This document shows, piece by piece, positions 34,225-42,857 of a stretch of DNA of 64,000 nt. The stretch lies in NCBI RefSeq assembly GCF_038594945.1, contig NZ_JBCFYD010000003.1, positions 62,001-126,000 of the forward strand, given 5' to 3'. The translations under genes were made by a program, and so were the position numbers. The first letter of the stretch is position 1; each line of letters starts with the position of its first letter. Source of the DNA: Fodinibius sp. Rm-B-1B1-1. GTDB lineage: Bacteria; Bacteroidota; Rhodothermia; Balneolales; Balneolaceae. The notes under the pieces are model-generated. The model did not search any database. It saw only the letters and a program-made list of their open reading frames with translations, and was not told the DNA's origin.

Positions 34225-34247
34225 AAGACTTAATATTATTAAGTCTT
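34225..34247. promoter_or_regulatory. 23-base perfect palindrome upstream of the TonB receptor gene
   Basis: Arms AAGACTTAATA and TATTAAGTCTT pair perfectly around a central T. It lies about 175 bases before the start codon. It could be an operator or a weak terminator stem; there is no T tract, so an operator is favoured. Confidence 0.45.
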
Positions 34248-34422: not shown

Positions 34423-37314
34423 ATGAACAGATCGATTCTAAAAAAGGTAGCATTACTTGGCGTAATCGGATTTGCCTTTACCTGGTTTACCAGTAATACG
34501 GCCTATGGCCAAACCCAAATATCAGGAACCGTTATCGTTGCTGATGAGGGCACTACAATGGGTGGGGTAAATGTAAGTGTCAAAGGAAAGGTAATTGGAA
34601 CCTCAACCGGGGTAGATGGAACATTTACTCTGAATGTCCAGCAATCTCCTCCTCTCACGCTTGTTTTTTCGATGGTTGGATTCAAAACAAGAGAAATTGA
34701 AATCACGGAGTCTTCGGTAACAGATTTAACCGTCGAACTCACCGAAGCGGCTATTGTCGGGGATGAAGTTGTGGTCTCAGCATCACGAGTTGAAGAAAAC
34801 ATTTTAGAGTCACCGGTATCAATCGAAAAAATAGATGCTATTGGCATTCAACAAGCTGCATCACCAAGTTTTTACGAATCTATTGCCAATTTAAAAGGAG
34901 TTGACTTTAGCACACAGAGTATCACTTTTAAATCCATAAACACACGGGGTTTTAATGCCAATGGCAATACACGTTTTGTACAACTCATCGATGGAATCGA
35001 CAACCAAGCCCCGGGCCTAAACTTTCCTGTGGGCAACGTCGTAGGTATTCCAGAGTTGGATCTGGAAAGTGCCGAACTTATTCCGGGTGTTGCCTCAGCC
35101 CTCTATGGCCCCAATGCCTTAAATGGTATTCTTTTACTCAACAGTAAAAGTCCGTTCGAATACCAGGGACTTTCGGCACAGGTAAAAATGGGAGCCAATC
35201 ATTTCGATTCAAATGTCGAAGATAATCCCCAACTCTACCAAGATTATGGATTGCGTTATGCCAATGCTGTGAATAACAAATTTGCCTATAAGTTTAATTT
35301 CTCATACCTCCGTGCTCAAGATTTTGTAGCCCAAGATACCCGCGATATGGGGCCCGCTTCTTTTGGAGCCGTGGAACGAGGAGCGACATCACGCAACGGA
35401 AACCGCGTGTATAACGGCGTAAATGTTTATGGGAATCAGCTTCTAACCATTGGACAGATAGCAGACCAACAAATTGCGCAGGGGAATCAAAATGTAGCTG
35501 CTATTCGTAATCTATTACCAGATGGCGAAGCAGGCGCATTTACCCCTACCGGCTTTCCAGAATCATCATTCGTAGATAATACCTCGGAAAGTTTGAAGTT
35601 AGGAACCGCGCTGCACTATCGTGTTACCGATGACTACGAAGTATTGGGACAATTCAATTGGGGAGCCGGCAGTTCGGTCTATACCGCAAATGATCGGTTT
35701 GTATTGGATGATTTCAATATCTGGACAGCAAAGTTAGAACTCAAAAATCCTAACTTCTTTGTCCGTGCTTATACTACTCAGGAAGATGCCGGAGATACCT
35801 ATGCTGCAAATACCCTGGCTACACTGATAAATGTGGAAAGCTTTGTTCCTGCCTATTTTCAAACCTTTGCTAATGCCCGAACCCAAGGGGCAACGGTTGA
35901 AGAAGCCCATGCGCAAGCCCGGGTAGCAGGTAATAATGCACAAGTGCAGCCCGGAACCCAACAATTTGAAAGCCTATCTAATCAATTACGAAGTACCCCG
36001 ATTTCGGAAGGCGGTGCCTTGTTTGTCGAGAAAACAGCACTGTGGCATGCCGAAACCAAGTATAACTTTGCAGATATCATCGATCCTTCTACCGTTGAAC
36101 TTATTGTAGGAGGAAGTGTACGCCGTTATGACCTCAACTCCGAAGGTACGCTTTTCGCCTTACGCGATAACGGTGAAGAATTCGATATTGATGAGTTTGG
36201 AGCTTATGCACAAGCTTCGAAAACAGTACTGGATGATCAATTAGACCTACAAGGATCACTTCGGTACGATAAAAACAAATATTTTGACGGGCAGTTGAGC
36301 CCAAGATTATCAGCTGTATTTACAATCGCTGGCAATCATAATATTCGTGCTTCCTATCAGCGTGGATTTCGTATGCCCAATACGCAAACCCAGTTTATTG
36401 ATCTGGATGTGGTACAACGACGTCTGATTGGAAGTAATCCGCAACTGGTTGACCGGTATAACTTTGAAACGAATACCGTTTACTACGAAAATAGCATTGC
36501 TGAAGCACGACAAGCCCTTAACGAAGGTGCATCTATGGGCGAAGCACGAGCTTTGCTGGAACCGGTTACATTTGATGAGTTCAAAACGGAGAAGGTTGAT
36601 TCTTATGAAATCGGATATAAAACACTGATCGGAAATAAGCTCTTTTTGGATGCGTACTATTATTATAGTGCTTACAAAGATTTTATTGCCGAGATCCGGT
36701 TTACACAGGCCGTTGATATTAACGAGCGAGGAAATGAAGATGCTCGCGATGGATTTGATCCGGTACCCAGTGGATTCAACAGTGAAGAAGAACGCAGGGA
36801 TGCCATTATCACCAATAACTTTCCAAATAATGACGGCCGTCTCCAGTCTTACGGTTTTGATGTGAATGCGGATGGTACGGTTGAAGCTCACGGCTTTGCC
36901 TTCGAAACCAAGTATGTTCTGGGGAATGGATTTTCATTAGGAGGAAATGTCGCTTTTAACAAGCTCATCTCGCAAGAAGATTTGATTGACCAAGGCTTCC
37001 GCGCCGAATATAACACCCCCGAATGGCGATATAATATCCAACTCGAAAACCGCAAACTCACCGACCAAGTTGGTTTTAATGTGGTATATCGCTGGCAAGA
37101 TGCCTTCTTATGGGAATCTTCATTCGGAAAAGGAGTCATAGATTCATATGGCACGCTTGATGCCCAGGTTAGCTATCGCATCCCACAGTTTAATACTTCA
37201 ATTAAGCTAAGCGGAAGCAATATCCTAAACAGCCAACATGTAACTTCATTTGGTAACCCACGGCTTGGAGCCATTTACATGGTATCCTTTACCTTCGATC
37301 AATTTATGAATTAA
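34423..37314 (+). CDS. TonB-dependent outer-membrane receptor with carboxypeptidase-like N-terminal domain
   Basis: The 963-residue protein has a signal peptide (residues 1-29, AYG-Q), a CarboxypepD_reg-like domain (about 30-115, ISGTVIVADEGTTMGGVNVSVKG), a plug (DEVVVSASRVEENILESPVSI, TRGFNANGNTRFVQLIDGIDNQ, GVASALYGPNALNGILLL) and a beta-barrel ending in MVSFTFDQFMN. It differs from SusC in plug motifs and has no SusD partner. Instead an SGNH lipoprotein gene begins 12 bases downstream. Together they suggest surface hydrolysis of an ester followed by import of the product; the ligand is unknown. Confidence 0.95.
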   Translation: MNRSILKKVALLGVIGFAFTWFTSNTAYGQTQISGTVIVADEGTTMGGVNVSVKGKVIGTSTGVDGTFTLNVQQSPPLTLVFSMVGFKTREIEITESSVTDLTVELTEAAIVGDEVVVSASRVEENILESPVSIEKIDAIGIQQAASPSFYESIANLKGVDFSTQSITFKSINTRGFNANGNTRFVQLIDGIDNQAPGLNFPVGNVVGIPELDLESAELIPGVASALYGPNALNGILLLNSKSPFEYQGLSAQVKMGANHFDSNVEDNPQLYQDYGLRYANAVNNKFAYKFNFSYLRAQDFVAQDTRDMGPASFGAVERGATSRNGNRVYNGVNVYGNQLLTIGQIADQQIAQGNQNVAAIRNLLPDGEAGAFTPTGFPESSFVDNTSESLKLGTALHYRVTDDYEVLGQFNWGAGSSVYTANDRFVLDDFNIWTAKLELKNPNFFVRAYTTQEDAGDTYAANTLATLINVESFVPAYFQTFANARTQGATVEEAHAQARVAGNNAQVQPGTQQFESLSNQLRSTPISEGGALFVEKTALWHAETKYNFADIIDPSTVELIVGGSVRRYDLNSEGTLFALRDNGEEFDIDEFGAYAQASKTVLDDQLDLQGSLRYDKNKYFDGQLSPRLSAVFTIAGNHNIRASYQRGFRMPNTQTQFIDLDVVQRRLIGSNPQLVDRYNFETNTVYYENSIAEARQALNEGASMGEARALLEPVTFDEFKTEKVDSYEIGYKTLIGNKLFLDAYYYYSAYKDFIAEIRFTQAVDINERGNEDARDGFDPVPSGFNSEEERRDAIITNNFPNNDGRLQSYGFDVNADGTVEAHGFAFETKYVLGNGFSLGGNVAFNKLISQEDLIDQGFRAEYNTPEWRYNIQLENRKLTDQVGFNVVYRWQDAFLWESSFGKGVIDSYGTLDAQVSYRIPQFNTSIKLSGSNILNSQHVTSFGNPRLGAIYMVSFTFDQFMN

Positions 37315-37326
37315 ACTATTGACACC

Positions 37327-39003
37327 ATGACATCCTACTTCAAAACAATTTATGTACTTGTATTTGCTGTCGTTTTTGTATTCGCATGTGAAGGCAACTA
37401 TGATTCACTGGTGGAAGAGCAGCTTGAAGAAAATCCGACGCCGGATGAAGTTTCAGGTGATGCCGGATCTGCTGACTTTAGCAACTATGTAGCCATTGGA
37501 AACTCCCTAACAGCCGGCTATATGGATGGTGCCCTCTATAATATGGGACAAGAATATTCGCTGGCCGCCCTGCTTCACCAACAGATGCAACTTGCAGGAG
37601 GCTCCGGCAATTTTAACCAACCGGATATCAATTCTGAGCTGGGTTTTAATACCTCTGTTGATCCCAATCCCCAAAACGGAACAATCTTGGGCAGATACAA
37701 ACTCGATACCAGCATTCCGGGCCCCTCTCCCACTGTGGGAGGTGATGAAATTGCTTCCTATGATGGAAATACTGCCGAACTTAATAACTTCGGCGTTCCG
37801 GGTATCGTCGTAGGCCAACTGTTGACCGAAGATACCGGCAATCCACAGACCCAGGCTTACAACCCTTTTTATGCCCGTTTTGCAAGCAGTCCCGGAAGCT
37901 CTACCATCATAGGTGATGTTTTGGCTGCCCAACCATCATTTTTTACGCTCTGGATTGGCAATAATGATGTTTTAGGATATGCCATTTCGGGCGCATCAAA
38001 CCCAAATATTCTGACCGCGGAGCAAGATTTTGAGAATTACTTTAACAAAACGGTAGATCAGCTGTTAAATAATTCAGAGGCCAGTGGTATCGTTGCAACC
38101 ATTCCACCAGTAACCGCTATTCCATTCTTCCAAGCCGTGTCGTACGATGCAATCGAATTGGCGGAAGAGGAAGCCATGCAACTCAATCAGGCATTGGCTG
38201 GTGTTAATGATGCCTTAGATGCCGTTGCAGCAAACTTTCCCAATCGCTCACAAGAAGATATGGATGCTCGTAAGATAAATTATCAAGAAGGAAACAATCC
38301 TATTTTAGTAAATGATCCTGCGTTGGATGATTTAGAGAATGAATTTGACGCGCTGGGTCTCCCTCAAGAGCAGCGGCAGGCCTTAGTACCCTACGAACAA
38401 TCACGACCGCTTACTGCTGATGAACTGGTAACATTATCAGCTGGTTCTGTTTTGGGGACAGAGTATAATCCCCAAAGTGAAACCCCTACTACTATTGGCG
38501 TTGTCATTCCACTTGGTTTTGATTCCCAGTCCTCTGCATTTGGTGATGCTTATTACCTGACCGTTCAGGAACAGGTTGAAATTCAGAATCGAACTACTGC
38601 ATTTAATACAACCATTGCTACCAAAACTGCTCAACATTCTGATCGATTAGCCCTGTTCGATATTAACGCCGGCTTTCCGGGGAATCCTAATACCGAAATG
38701 GGCGCTTTTGCTGATCTGTTTGGTATTGATGGTGAACTGGGCATTCGCGTTCAGGGTACGCTTTTACAGCCAGACTTTAGTCCCAATGGCGTTTTTTCTA
38801 CCGATGGCATCCATCCCAATGCCCGTGGAAATGCGATACTTGCTAATGAGTTTATAAAGGTCATTGAGGATGCTTTTGGTGCTGACATACCGGATGTGGA
38901 TGTCCTTAATCTGCCCAGCGTGCAGCTTTGTGCAGGAGATTGTGTAAGCCAACAACAGCAAAAAACAGTAGCCGAAATCGGTAAAATTACTTTTGATATG
39001 TAG
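37327..39003 (+). CDS. SGNH/GDSL-type hydrolase lipoprotein
   Basis: The 558-residue lipoprotein has Cys21 (VFAC) as lipid site. SGNH blocks are present: block I AIGNSLTAGY with Ser60 (Asp to Asn change in the GDSL motif), block II NFGVPGIVV, block III GNND (Gly211-Asp214) and block V DGIH (Asp493, His496). The spacing between blocks III and V is large because of an inserted region (about 240-440). It should be an esterase or lipase on the cell surface or in the periplasm. It shares its whole layout with the second SGNH lipoprotein at 41425 and is translationally coupled to the TonB receptor. Confidence 0.92.
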   Translation: MTSYFKTIYVLVFAVVFVFACEGNYDSLVEEQLEENPTPDEVSGDAGSADFSNYVAIGNSLTAGYMDGALYNMGQEYSLAALLHQQMQLAGGSGNFNQPDINSELGFNTSVDPNPQNGTILGRYKLDTSIPGPSPTVGGDEIASYDGNTAELNNFGVPGIVVGQLLTEDTGNPQTQAYNPFYARFASSPGSSTIIGDVLAAQPSFFTLWIGNNDVLGYAISGASNPNILTAEQDFENYFNKTVDQLLNNSEASGIVATIPPVTAIPFFQAVSYDAIELAEEEAMQLNQALAGVNDALDAVAANFPNRSQEDMDARKINYQEGNNPILVNDPALDDLENEFDALGLPQEQRQALVPYEQSRPLTADELVTLSAGSVLGTEYNPQSETPTTIGVVIPLGFDSQSSAFGDAYYLTVQEQVEIQNRTTAFNTTIATKTAQHSDRLALFDINAGFPGNPNTEMGAFADLFGIDGELGIRVQGTLLQPDFSPNGVFSTDGIHPNARGNAILANEFIKVIEDAFGADIPDVDVLNLPSVQLCAGDCVSQQQQKTVAEIGKITFDM

Positions 39004-39044
39004 AAATCTTTCCAAACCGATCTGATGGCTAACGTATTTATATC

Positions 39045-39082
39045 AAGGGACTGTCTCCAAATAAGGCAGTCCCTTTTATTTT
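39045..39082 (+). terminator. Intrinsic terminator after the first SGNH gene
   Basis: Stem AAGGGACTG (39045-39053) with CAGTCCCTT (39067-39075), 13-base loop, then TTTATTTT. It closes the TonB receptor/SGNH operon. Confidence 0.85.
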
Positions 39083-39180
39083 AAGATGAGTCATCTCTAA
39101 ACACTGTTTTAGAACGTCAATAAATAAGTTCTGATAGAAGTTTAACTAATTCCACACCGTTCCATCGGCACTACCTGTAT

Positions 39181-39924
39181 TTACTTGGTTAATTTGCTGA
39201 TAATTAGTAACCGCGGACTCTTTTGCGGATCAAAATCACTCCCCTGATAATCTCCATTCACATCTATAATTTTAAGATCACGTTTCGCCATCTCCTTCTC
39301 AAACCAATCCAGTCCATACAACTTTACACGCTCCCAGTATACACGAGGTTTGTCCAATTTATCTCCTGCAAATGCTATGTCTTTATGAATTGCACCATTT
39401 TTGATATATCGTTTAATCTCATATCTAAGCTCCTGAAACTCTCCCTTTTCTTCAGGTACAAAGTTTTGTCTCACTTTTTCAGCATTTAAATAATCGAAAA
39501 CAAAAAGCCCCTCCCTCTTCAACATTGCTGTAACACTATCCAGCACCGAAGCATTTTCATCGTCATCTTTAAAATAGCCGAAAGTCGTAAACAAGTTGAC
39601 AATCGCATCAAACTGTTGGGGCAGTGGATTTCGCATATCTCTAACTTCAAAGCGCGTATTCGTTAACCCAAGCTCATCAGCCTTTTCCTTGGCTGTTTGT
39701 ATAGCTGCAGGAGAAAGATCTATGCCTGTAACATCATATCCACGTTTAGCTAAATTATGCGAATGTCGTCCCCGGCCGCACCCCAAATCTAAAATAGAAT
39801 GATACTTCTCTGATAAAAGCGTGTGTTCTAAAAACTCAATTAATTGTTCTGCTTCTTTTTCATCGCGATCGGCATACAGTTTTTCATAAAGTGGACTGTC
39901 AAACCACTCTTCAAACCAATCCAT
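39181..39924 (-). CDS. Class I SAM-dependent methyltransferase
   Basis: The 247-residue protein has motif I ILDLGCGRGRHSHNLA, motif II GIDLSPAAIQTA and DAIVNLFTTFGYF, all of the Methyltransf_25/11 type. The substrate cannot be told. It is transcribed opposite to its two neighbours and divergent from fadL-like gene 40150, with 225 bases between starts. Confidence 0.9.
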   Translation of the reverse strand: MDWFEEWFDSPLYEKLYADRDEKEAEQLIEFLEHTLLSEKYHSILDLGCGRGRHSHNLAKRGYDVTGIDLSPAAIQTAKEKADELGLTNTRFEVRDMRNPLPQQFDAIVNLFTTFGYFKDDDENASVLDSVTAMLKREGLFVFDYLNAEKVRQNFVPEEKGEFQELRYEIKRYIKNGAIHKDIAFAGDKLDKPRVYWERVKLYGLDWFEKEMAKRDLKIIDVNGDYQGSDFDPQKSPRLLIISKLTK

Positions 39925-40030
39925 ACATCAGTATTAATAATATTTACATTATTTAATGCACGAATGAAGTAAAAAAGTAACCCTATTGCAAACCTTCCCT
40001 TTTATATTTGCTGATCTTTTAATTTTTTAT

Positions 40031-40047
40031 AGTTAACACTGTTAACT
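40031..40047. promoter_or_regulatory. 17-base perfect palindrome upstream of the FadL-family gene
   Basis: Arms AGTTAACA and TGTTAACT enclose a single C. It lies in the divergent promoter region, about 35 bases before a TATAAT box at 40082-40087 (a TTAATA at about -35, 16-base spacer). The form suits a TetR- or GntR-family operator, a common kind of fatty-acid regulator. No regulator gene is in the window. Confidence 0.5.
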
Positions 40048-40149
40048 TTTTAATTATGATTAATACTGAAACCGGTTACAATATAATAGTGTTTAGAACA
40101 AATCATTTACATGACGATCTTTTAAACCTAACAAAACACTTTTGAATCT

Positions 40150-41403
40150 ATGCGAAAACTAATAGCTACGGTATTTCTATTATTGATGTGTTCGGGATCG
40201 GCTTACTCAAGCGGATTCTCGATCTATGAAGCCAGCGTACGAGCCAATGGAATGCTCGGTGCATTCTCGGCCTATGCTGAAGATGCCTCTTCTATCTTTT
40301 ACAATCCTGCAGGTCTGGGCGGATTAGAAGGTATAAACATCACGGGCGGAGCCACTATTATTGCTCCACGTTCCACCTTCCGAAACCTCTCCCCCCTGGC
40401 CCCTGCCGGACAAGAAACTGTAATGGAGAAACAGGAATTTCTTGTACCTAATTTCTATGGGTCATATCAAATAACCGATAATCTGACGGCGGGTATTGGC
40501 GTCAATGCTCCATTTGGTTTAGGCACAAAATGGCCTGAAGATTGGGTAGGTAGAGGTTCCTCTATTGAAACCAGTATTCAAACACTATTTGTTACTCCAT
40601 CTGTTGGTTATGAATTCTCCAATACAGGTATTGGGAACATCCGTGTTGGGGCCGGTCTTAGAATTGCAGCACATGGAGAAGTAAAACTAAGTCGTGCTGT
40701 TACTTCTTTTAGCCCCGAAGGCACTTTTACCCTCGATGGAGAACTCAAGGAACCGGCTTTTGGATTTAATGCCGGTGTTCAATATGATCCCACCGATAAC
40801 ATAACGCTCGGCTTTATGTACCGTAGCGAAGTTACCACTGAATTTGAGGGGGATGCTACCTTCCAAAACCTAAGCGTAGGATTCCCCTCCTCGGCACAAG
40901 GTGGAGCCGAAATTACGCTGCCTGCCAGTTATGTTGTCGCCCTCAATGTAGAACCTATTGAAGGATTAACTACCGAACTTGATTACGTGTGGTGGGGCTG
41001 GTCCAGTTATGATGAATTGAATATTGAGTTTGATCAGCCAGTACCTGCACTGGGAGGTAATACTATCACCAATGAACGAAATTACAAAGATTCTTGGCAG
41101 CTGCGCTTTGGTGCTGAATACACGGAACTGCCCGTTGAAAATCTCACCGTTCGCGGGGGTATTGCGTATGATGAAAACCCTATTCGAGATCGCTATGTGG
41201 ATCCCACCCTCCCAGATTCCGACCGCTGGTTATTTTCAGGTGGACTAAGCTACCAGGTTACCGATTACTTGGCTGTTGACGCTTCATACATCTTTATCCG
41301 GGCCAAACAACGCAAGGTAACCAATACACACGAGGGTGCTATTGACGGTGTCTATACTACCTATGCCAATCTACCGGGCTTAGGCTTTACACTGAATTTA
41401 TAA
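40150..41403 (+). CDS. OmpP1/FadL/TodX-family outer-membrane channel
   Basis: The 417-residue protein has a signal peptide ending near residue 20 (AYS-S), then SGFSIYEASVRANGMLGAFSAYAEDASSIFYNPAGLGGLEG, the N-terminal hatch pattern of FadL-like long-chain fatty-acid and hydrocarbon channels. The C-terminal strand ends LPGLGFTLNL. It would pass hydrophobic molecules across the outer membrane. The SGNH lipoprotein gene begins 21 bases after its stop, so the two are likely one unit. Confidence 0.94.
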   Translation: MRKLIATVFLLLMCSGSAYSSGFSIYEASVRANGMLGAFSAYAEDASSIFYNPAGLGGLEGINITGGATIIAPRSTFRNLSPLAPAGQETVMEKQEFLVPNFYGSYQITDNLTAGIGVNAPFGLGTKWPEDWVGRGSSIETSIQTLFVTPSVGYEFSNTGIGNIRVGAGLRIAAHGEVKLSRAVTSFSPEGTFTLDGELKEPAFGFNAGVQYDPTDNITLGFMYRSEVTTEFEGDATFQNLSVGFPSSAQGGAEITLPASYVVALNVEPIEGLTTELDYVWWGWSSYDELNIEFDQPVPALGGNTITNERNYKDSWQLRFGAEYTELPVENLTVRGGIAYDENPIRDRYVDPTLPDSDRWLFSGGLSYQVTDYLAVDASYIFIRAKQRKVTNTHEGAIDGVYTTYANLPGLGFTLNL

Positions 41404-41424
41404 TTGAATAAAGGGACTTACGCT

Positions 41425-42804
41425 ATGAATTATTTACTGACACATTCCAAAAAATTACTTTCGCTGGTTCTGATACTGGCACTTTTTACAGCCTGTGAGG
41501 ATTATCAGGATCTGGATGTTGATCCAGTCGATACCGGCGATGCTGATTTTTCTTCATATGTTGCTGTGGGTAACAGTTTGACTGCTGGATTCCAGAATAA
41601 TGCACTTTATCAATCCGGACAGAAATACTCTTATCCAAACCTTATTGCACGGCAAGTAAATCAGTCGGAGGGTTTTACACAGCCAATCATCAGCGATCCG
41701 GGCATCAGCAGTGGAGATGGACGTATTGAACTCACGAATCTGGATCCCGTTCAGACAATTACAAATAGTTCCATGGGTTCTCCAACCACACAAGCAGAAA
41801 AACCATTTGCTAACCTTGGGATTCCCGGTGCTGTGCTTGTCGATTATTTAAATCCAAATAACAGCGGGGATTTAAAAGAACGAGCAACTGATGACAGTCG
41901 TCCCGATTATAATCCCTTTTACGGCATTGTGATAGAACAATCAGAACTGGCAAAAGATGCACCTAACCTACATAACCAAGTTGCCAAACAAGATCCTTCT
42001 CTTGTTACCTTTTGGTTAGGCAATAACGATGTATTAGGCTTTGTTACTTCTGGTGGAGAAGGGCAACCGATTACCAATCCCAATGATTTCGATCAGCTTT
42101 ACCAAGGCTCAGCACAAGCGCTTGGATCAACGGGAGCAAATGTGGTCGTATATAATATTCCCGATGTAACTACTATTCCCTATGTATTCTATCTTAGAAC
42201 ACAGTTAGAACAACAAGGAGCGATAGTATACAATGAGGAAAGCCAAAGTTACCAACTGGTGACCGAGCAAGGGAATTTCGATATCTATATTGAAGCTAAT
42301 GGCGGATCACGTGTTATGCGTCAAGCAGATTTTCCTCTGCTTTCGGCCCAAGAATATTTTGCGCAAGTTCAAGCCGGAGAAGCTCAACCTCCGGTTCAAC
42401 CACAAACAGCAATTCCCGATCAGTTAGTGCTTGATGGACCTGCGGGAGGCCCGCAAGGTAGTTCTGAATTGGAACAGGCAGCCGGTGCTGTCCAACAGTA
42501 TAATGCCACTATTGAGAATGTGGCTGCTTCTGCTGGATTTACGGTTGTAGATATCAATCAGATCTTCGCTGAAACCTTTAATACCTTTCAGAGTTCTGGG
42601 GGCGAAGAGGGCTACCAAACAAATGGACTAAATCTGCGGCCAGTGCCCGGAGAGCTGTTCAGTTTTGATGGCGTACATCCCACAAACCGGGGATCTGCTG
42701 TTATTGCCAACGAAACTATTGAAGCAATTAACAACTCCATGAATGCGGGAATTGAGAAAATAAATGTATCCAAAATTCCGGAAGGGTTTCCTGTAGCCAA
42801 TTAA
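41425..42804 (+). CDS. SGNH/GDSL-type hydrolase lipoprotein, paralogue of the first
   Basis: From ATG 41425 (preceded by AAAGGGA) the protein has 459 residues and a lipobox ending at Cys24 (LFTAC). Blocks match the first SGNH protein: AVGNSLTAGF (Ser51), NLGIPGAVL, GNND (Gly199-Asp202) and DGVH (Asp415, His418). An upstream TTG at 41404 would add seven residues and is not used. Its job next to a FadL channel is presumably to release fatty acids or similar products from esters at the surface. A strong terminator follows. Confidence 0.92.
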   Translation: MNYLLTHSKKLLSLVLILALFTACEDYQDLDVDPVDTGDADFSSYVAVGNSLTAGFQNNALYQSGQKYSYPNLIARQVNQSEGFTQPIISDPGISSGDGRIELTNLDPVQTITNSSMGSPTTQAEKPFANLGIPGAVLVDYLNPNNSGDLKERATDDSRPDYNPFYGIVIEQSELAKDAPNLHNQVAKQDPSLVTFWLGNNDVLGFVTSGGEGQPITNPNDFDQLYQGSAQALGSTGANVVVYNIPDVTTIPYVFYLRTQLEQQGAIVYNEESQSYQLVTEQGNFDIYIEANGGSRVMRQADFPLLSAQEYFAQVQAGEAQPPVQPQTAIPDQLVLDGPAGGPQGSSELEQAAGAVQQYNATIENVAASAGFTVVDINQIFAETFNTFQSSGGEEGYQTNGLNLRPVPGELFSFDGVHPTNRGSAVIANETIEAINNSMNAGIEKINVSKIPEGFPVAN

Positions 42805-42824
42805 CATTAACGAATCACATTACC

Positions 42825-42857
42825 AAAGCGGAGGGGATTCCCCTCCGCTTTTTTTAT
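42825..42857 (+). terminator. Intrinsic terminator after the second SGNH gene
   Basis: A GC-rich stem (AAGCGGAGGGGA with the matching TCCCCTCCGCTT-like arm) is followed by seven Ts. It closes the FadL/SGNH unit. Confidence 0.92.

Follow-up and report, generated by a model that had tools for sequence, protein, structure and literature searches.

Channel-SGNH lipoprotein gene pairs in Fodinibius: a candidate esterase-fed fatty-acid uptake unit and a TonB receptor with a predicted SGNH-fold partner

Where do the fatty acids imported by FadL-type channels of this group come from, and which proteins other than SusD act as partners of TonB receptors? Both questions are raised by a locus of Fodinibius sp. 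Rm-B-1B1-1. It lies in a window of 64,000 nucleotides (the whole stretch of DNA analysed here, part of the 3.41-Mb genome G000; coordinates are those of the window). A TonB-dependent receptor gene (P0001) and a gene for a FadL/OmpP1-family barrel (P0003) are each directly followed there by a gene for an SGNH-family lipoprotein, P0002 and P0004 respectively (Table 1). The gaps are of 12 bp for the receptor and 21 bp for FadL, the latter counted from the ATG at 41425; an alternative TTG start of the P0004 open reading frame (ORF), at 41404, directly abuts FadL. On these adjacencies, coordinates and Pfam matches agree with the first-pass annotation of this DNA. We read the FadL pair as probably a fatty-acid uptake unit that is fed by an esterase. 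For the TonB pair, the best reading is a receptor with an SGNH-fold partner, catalytic in this organism, and we give it about an even chance. The explanation as a whole, with its two units, is one that we slightly favour.

P0002 and P0004 are 28% identical (E-value 5e-35), and the GNSL, GNND and DG(I/V)HP blocks are present in both. The residues that define SGNH/GDSL hydrolases (Ser of block I, Asn of block III, Asp-x-x-His of block V) are found at Ser60, Asn213, Asp493 and His496 in P0002, whose lipid-bearing cysteine is Cys21, and at Ser51, Asn201, Asp415 and His418 in P0004, with Cys24. An earlier description of the two proteins as paralogues with an unusual GNSL block stands as far as their kinship is concerned; the GNS[LI] block itself is the norm among catalytic members of the family. 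The AlphaFold models, with a mean predicted local distance difference test (pLDDT) of 81.1 for P0002 and 75.9 for P0004, were superposed on the GDSL esterase 8hwp over 244 residues (Z 17.7, root mean square deviation (rmsd) 3.3) and 241 residues (Z 19.7, rmsd 3.5) respectively, and EstA, PlaA and Vibrio PlpA were among the fold neighbours of both. For P0002, a sequence search of the PDB gave a best E-value of 0.04, a profile search reached SGNH enzymes at 4e-6, and the model matched weakly by Foldseek alone and strongly by VIA-align. No SusD family was found among the Pfam matches of either lipoprotein at E 0.1. We regard both as predicted SGNH-fold hydrolases.

Conservation of the catalytic residues was counted over 154 distinct rows. 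Ser, Asn, Asp and His were all kept in 37/37 distinct TonB-partnered proteins of catalytic lineages, and each of them, counted separately, was kept in 99-100 of the 101 FadL-partnered rows. The exceptions are two rows that look like halves of one frameshifted gene (L080) and one protein lacking the Asn (L111). At least two acidic residues stand within six positions after the lipid Cys in P0002 (EGNYDS) and in P0004 (EDYQDL), suggesting that both would be exposed at the cell surface. The rule that links such residues to surface lipoproteins comes from Bacteroides and is unproven in Balneolota. The same acidic signal was present in 38/38 TonB-partnered and 93/103 FadL-partnered catalytic genes, duplicates included.

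The association with a channel is recurrent. Profiles derived from the initial loci were run over 176 fetched loci (L034-L089, L096-L175 and L277-L316) and the window itself, and an ORF was counted as SGNH-family if it had at least 300 aa and scored more than 60 bits. A FadL gene (103 cases) or a TonB receptor gene (45 cases) was directly upstream of 148 of the 157 SGNH-family ORFs, a raw count based on profile labelling; the profiles were trained on paired genes, which influences what counts as FadL or receptor, not gene position. The gap between channel and SGNH genes had a median of 16.5 bp and lay between -10 and 40 bp in 138/148 pairs. Within two large sets selected by SGNH alone, which had 3 genes in common, 58/61 and 77/82 genes were paired; for comparison, the whole genome G000 contains 3 Toluene_X matches. 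Two of the nine unpaired ORFs are tandem copies behind a paired gene (L074), three lie less than 330 bp from a contig end (L116, L128, L168), one is flanked by a receptor on the opposite side (L050), and three are without any channel neighbour (L154, L158, L315).

The named loci, which are the best 80 of at least 567 candidates, originate from Balneolota, Ignavibacteriota, Calditrichota, Kryptonia, Chlorobiota, Bacteroidales, Sphingobacterium, Pontibacter, Hymenobacter and many Flavobacteriaceae, and one carries the label Gammaproteobacteria. At E 1e-10, the SGNH family was matched in 159 of 394 phylum genomes; 109 of the 159 belong to other classes, and loci were fetched from 9 of these. The twin arrangement recurs in a genome of another class (G157), with receptor, SGNH, FadL and SGNH genes in a row (L316). 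No pairing of SGNH proteins with FadL or TonB receptors appeared in literature titles and abstract openings, a scope taking in little of the subscription literature, nor in passages of PMC13304423.

What leads us mainly to read the FadL pair as a fatty-acid uptake unit is a palindrome common to FadL-SGNH, thiolase and tetR genes. The palindrome upstream of FadL is AGTTAACACTGTTAACT. Its exact core, TTAACANTGTTAA, occurs twice in G000, once ahead of FadL-SGNH and once 80 bp upstream of the thiolase gene of a fadIJ pair. This thiolase scores 475 bits on the FadI model (cut-off 560) and 422 bits on that of acetyl-CoA C-acyltransferase (cut-off 241), and the next gene encodes a 707-aa enoyl-CoA hydratase/3-hydroxyacyl-CoA dehydrogenase. 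A one-mismatch copy, GTTAACACCGTTAAC, ends 10 bp before a TetR gene (C2:196174). Over 12 genomes of the genus, 31 palindrome sites were found, against 5 for a reversed control pattern: 8 before FadL-SGNH, 7 before thiolase, 5 before tetR and 2 before cydA genes, 1 between a TonB receptor and a methyltransferase gene (G094), and 8 elsewhere, 5 of them examined and the others being G068:C1:1811608, G080:C33:344573 and G113:C5:80298. Pfam matches identify one thiolase, two TetR proteins and one cydA product at these sites; the other genes were named from their visible protein starts. The exact site is present in 8 of the 10 genus genomes known to have FadL, and G113 has it with one mismatch. For two TetR proteins of genus-mates, FadR gave the best NCBIfam E-value, at 55.7 and 53.7 bits (below the cut-off of 200), the former tied with another TetR family. 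The palindrome thus marks uptake, beta-oxidation and regulator genes (tetR through the one-mismatch copy in G000), as a FadR-like regulon might. A literature search for a TetR fatty-acid regulon in Bacteroidetes, judged by titles, brought up nothing that bears on it.

The channel itself fits this picture. P0003 scores 231 bits on PF03349 (cut-off 29.7), and its residues 22-390 align with residues 2-397 of the E. coli FadL chain. Since it reaches 96.8 bits on the NCBIfam equivalog of E. coli FadL, below the cut-off of 585, we take it as a member of the FadL family and not as the equivalog. We propose that P0004, lipid-anchored beside the FadL barrel and possibly docked on it, would hydrolyse acyl esters, for instance exogenous lipids or lysophospholipids, and that the freed fatty acids would enter via FadL for breakdown by FadIJ. 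In this proposal, TTAACA-N-TGTTAA would be bound by a TetR-family repressor at FadL-SGNH, at fadIJ and at its own gene, so that the FadL-SGNH unit would be switched on together with beta-oxidation. The first-pass annotation had suggested, for both pairs, that an esterase frees a product which the channel imports; for the FadL pair the kept residues, the esterase fold, the FadL-like N-terminus and the palindrome shared with fadIJ and TetR all speak for it.

Several observations weigh against this reading. The remaining three of the four one-mismatch sites of G000 lie inside ORFs, and a scan of this genome allowing two mismatches returned background only (52 matches for the pattern, 64 for the control). 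Palindromes also precede the two cydA genes and lie at the 8 other places, FadL-SGNH is present in G068 without an exact palindrome before it, and five more distant FadL homologues have no SGNH gene beside them. The cydA sites, before genes for subunit I of cytochrome bd oxidase, are at L226:4077 (G076, named by Pfam) and L233:4040 (G080, by protein start).

Might the FadL-SGNH pair rather recycle lipids of the cell's own envelope, the SGNH protein clearing misplaced outer-leaflet (lyso)phospholipids and FadL returning the fatty acids? Phospholipases and the lysophospholipase PlaA are among the fold neighbours, the unit occurs in several phyla belonging to the Fibrobacteres-Chlorobi-Bacteroidetes (FCB) group, and it has a palindrome in common with fadIJ. 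Presence in only 159/394 phylum genomes is odd, however, for a housekeeping function, and an SGNH protein that varies (46% identity) behind a near-constant FadL (91%) suits changing outside substrates better, so that we consider recycling rather unlikely. The variation was seen in two loci, L043:6374-7909 and L044:6362-7897, compared with window 41425-42804: FadL is 89-91% identical, against 45-46% for the SGNH partner. In L043, 52 of the first 60 residues are identical to those of P0004, and identity is about 30% from residue 121, a pattern suggestive of an exchange of the catalytic part behind an unchanged anchor.

For the TonB pair, the same scheme of an esterase feeding its channel fares less well. 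In its favour are the residues kept in all 37 proteins; against it stand a clade of catalytically dead partners, receptors that stand alone, some of them at the same address, and the lack of the fad palindrome. Nine SGNH homologues form a single clade (Shimodaira-Hasegawa-like approximate likelihood ratio test (SH-aLRT) 100), distributed over six family-mates (three in G005, two in G060, and one each in G007, G033, G070 and G100). The catalytic Asp is present in 9/9, Ser in 2/9, and Asn and His in 0/9. They are full-length homologues of the SGNH family (profile-profile probability 100); seven of them immediately follow a TonB receptor gene, the remaining two being tandem copies located after the first. 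Since the dead homologues still stand behind receptors, the partnership appears to have outlived catalysis, and since seven of nine proteins without catalytic residues do so directly, hydrolysis would not be an indispensable part of the TonB pair. Their position at the surface is less sure than for the catalytic proteins because 8/9 are without two acidic residues after the Cys (1/9 has them), a point against our explanation as a whole. G357 holds a candidate tenth member (289 bits on the dead-clade profile), and at L074:6108-11119 (G005) three dead homologues follow one receptor in tandem.

Among 26 loci fetched via a relative of the receptor, 2 had a receptor with a catalytically dead SGNH partner and 24 a solo receptor without SGNH neighbour (L301 being cut by a contig end), which also weighs against this explanation and indicates that this type of receptor can do without an SGNH gene. 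In related species, the same kind of address is occupied either by a receptor with its SGNH gene or by a receptor from a sister clade that stands alone (L047 vs L277, L061 vs L278, L057 vs L287 and L056 vs L279, in this order). In 4/4 genome pairs compared by BLAST, flanking genes were 57-98% identical, and receptors only 43-47%. Such allele exchange at one address looks like surface-receptor switching, and the receptor and its SGNH gene seem to travel as one unit. In G005 (L047), the receptor locus adjoins grpE-dnaJ. A small second GDSL hydrolase gene is found there, divergent from the receptor (L047:13509-14201, 230 aa, PF13472), with weak SGNH-profile matches at the corresponding place in L283, L285, L287 and L302.

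Control of the TonB unit also seems to differ. The receptor has a palindrome of its own, with the core ACTTAATATT[A/C]TTAAGT, found in its exact form once each in 4 of the 12 genus genomes (G000, G048, G023 and G414), 178-199 bp before the receptor gene. As this core was found only there, before the receptor, the TonB unit seems to be under other control in those four genomes. The fad palindrome is absent from the TonB pair in G000, and an operator common to both units is not supported in this genome. Separate control is uncertain genus-wide, because G094 has an exact fad-type palindrome upstream of its TonB receptor, between receptor and methyltransferase gene, an observation that goes against our reading. 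No FadL-SGNH unit was found in this case (L049), and receptor and SGNH genes take its place beside the methyltransferase gene, and the distance from palindrome to methyltransferase gene is about that seen beside FadL. We judge this palindrome to be the remnant of a lost FadL unit, a view that is unproven.

P0002 would be a capture or lid partner with an SGNH fold, serving its receptor in the way that SusD serves SusC; in G000 it would still be catalytic, and its unit separately controlled. A rival proposal gives the lipoproteins only a structural or binding role, as lids of the barrels, with inherited SGNH residues and incidental hydrolysis. The nine-member clade, seven of it directly behind a receptor and without Asn, His and mostly Ser, would be explained in this way, and SusD-type lids are a precedent. 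The near-complete retention of the triad outside the dead clade, behind both kinds of channel, suggests on the contrary selection for catalysis, and makes the proposal unlikely. Two near-invariant cysteines lie in a C-terminal tail motif of the TonB-partnered SGNH proteins; in P0002 this end carries an LCAGDCVS motif (window 38926-38949), at the edge of the low-confidence part of the model.

How did two related hydrolases come to stand behind different channels? The first-pass annotation spoke of a duplication of the hydrolase gene, which is misleading. In an unrooted tree of 151 SGNH rows made by a quick method, a branch (support 97) that splits the tree 71:80 separates P0002 from P0004, and we rejected a recent local duplication on this ground. 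At least three changes between TonB and FadL partnership are required on this tree, the TonB-partnered groups being one clade made up mainly of Balneolales (98), one of Flavobacteriaceae (94) and a lone row, L127. Tentatively, these pairs may belong to a class of outer-membrane uptake complexes found across the FCB group, in which a barrel-docked, lipid-anchored SGNH esterase would act as a catalytic lid and would have been variously recruited or decayed. If FadL partnership were ancestral, two or three recruitments to TonB receptors would have taken place (Balneolales, Flavobacteriaceae and the lone case), and in one TonB lineage the esterase would have degenerated to a SusD-like lid that binds without catalysis. 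A conserved esterase-channel pair tied to a beta-oxidation palindrome would provide a direct and testable answer, for one class, to the question of where the fatty acids come from. Catalytically dead relatives next to TonB receptors provide a natural experiment on the mode of action of such partners, cutting or holding.

The two pairs resemble several known systems. As in SusC-SusD, a TonB-dependent receptor with a CarbopepD_reg domain directly precedes the gene of a lipoprotein partner. P0001, which has CarbopepD_reg, Plug and barrel domains, differs in reaching only 72.5 bits on the SusC/RagA NCBIfam TIGR04056 (cut-off 368), and P0002 in having a predicted SGNH fold, a triad that is usually intact in its kind, and no SusD domain. 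P0003 is similar to FadL/TodX channels in its PF03349 match, its FadL-length alignment and the absence of an N-terminal extension, but here an SGNH lipoprotein gene follows the barrel. AupA-AupB, for alkane uptake in Marinobacter, also combines a FadL-family channel with a lipoprotein, AupB; P0003 scores 15.7 bits on AupA, for a cut-off of 840. SGNH lipolytic esterases such as EstA have the same fold and catalytic blocks as P0002 and P0004, and EstA-type lipases also stay attached at the outer membrane, according to PMC13304423. EstA is fused to its own barrel, whereas the barrel here is a separate transporter gene.

The likeness to BamG-BamH needs more attention. Two papers of 2025, PMC12611786 and PMC12578637, describe BamG as a barrel of the FadL family whose N-terminal tail is extended and which carries the surface lipoprotein BamH. 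The BamG2-BamH2 paralogues of Bacteroides form a putative operon, and the single BamH domain with an assigned fold is of the carbohydrate-binding type; neither paper mentions SGNH or GDSL in its text. Although P0003-P0004 likewise combine a FadL-family barrel with a lipoprotein, and the SGNH-paired FadL of L167 has BamG as its best, sub-cut-off, NCBIfam match, we rejected their identity with BamG-BamH as very improbable, since P0003 scores 31.3 bits on NCBIfam BamG (cut-off 250, reached by 0/8 other SGNH-paired FadLs), its mature N-terminus is level with that of FadL and without extension (as seen by eye in 10 paired FadLs), its partner has a predicted SGNH fold, and the unit has its palindrome in common with fadIJ. 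Another clear Toluene_X protein encoded in G000 (L093:8235-9725), with a longer N-tail reminiscent of BamG and no SGNH neighbour, is the likelier BamG of this genome. As it too gave no match to the BamG model at E 0.01, this model appears weak for the phylum.

From the layout of the locus (Table 1), receptor-P0002 and FadL-P0004 are two separate two-gene units, since each has its own terminator-like hairpin and a methyltransferase gene lies between them on the opposite strand; a single operon spanning both is ruled out on the same grounds. The hairpin scan of the region returned 12 hairpins in total, against 9.2 in shuffles, and the two at the unit ends have the longest stems. Promoter-like matches were no commoner in the region than in shuffles and were not used as evidence. 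The methyltransferase gene also adjoins FadL-SGNH in genus-mates.

Table 1. Features of the two channel-SGNH units and their surroundings (window coordinates).
Feature	Coordinates	Strand	Remarks
Palindrome AAGACTTAATA-T-TATTAAGTCTT, perfect	34225..34247	.	~175 bp 5' of TonB receptor
TonB-dependent receptor P0001, 963 aa	34423..37314	+	PF00593, Plug and CarbopepD_reg_2 matches
SGNH lipoprotein P0002, 558 aa, TonB receptor partner	37327..39003	+	PF00657 8e-14
Terminator-like hairpin with T tail, closing first unit	39045..39075	+	Hairpin scan, 12-pair stem
S-adenosylmethionine (SAM)-dependent methyltransferase gene, divergent from FadL	39181..39924	-	Neighbour between units, membership in neither indicated
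Palindrome AGTTAACA-C-TGTTAACT	40031..40047	.	Putative operator, TetR-family fatty-acid regulator
FadL/OmpP1-family barrel P0003, 417 aa	40150..41403	+	PF03349 2.4e-68; mature N-terminus SGF..., canonical
SGNH lipoprotein P0004, 459 aa, FadL partner	41425..42804	+	PF00657 1.4e-17
Terminator-like hairpin with T tail, closing second unit	42825..42851	+	Hairpin scan, 12-pair stem

Elsewhere in G000, a further GDSL-like protein of 499 aa is encoded at L095:7789-9288; it is without an obvious signal peptide, has Pfam matches below cut-off, and carries GDS and DGLHP blocks.

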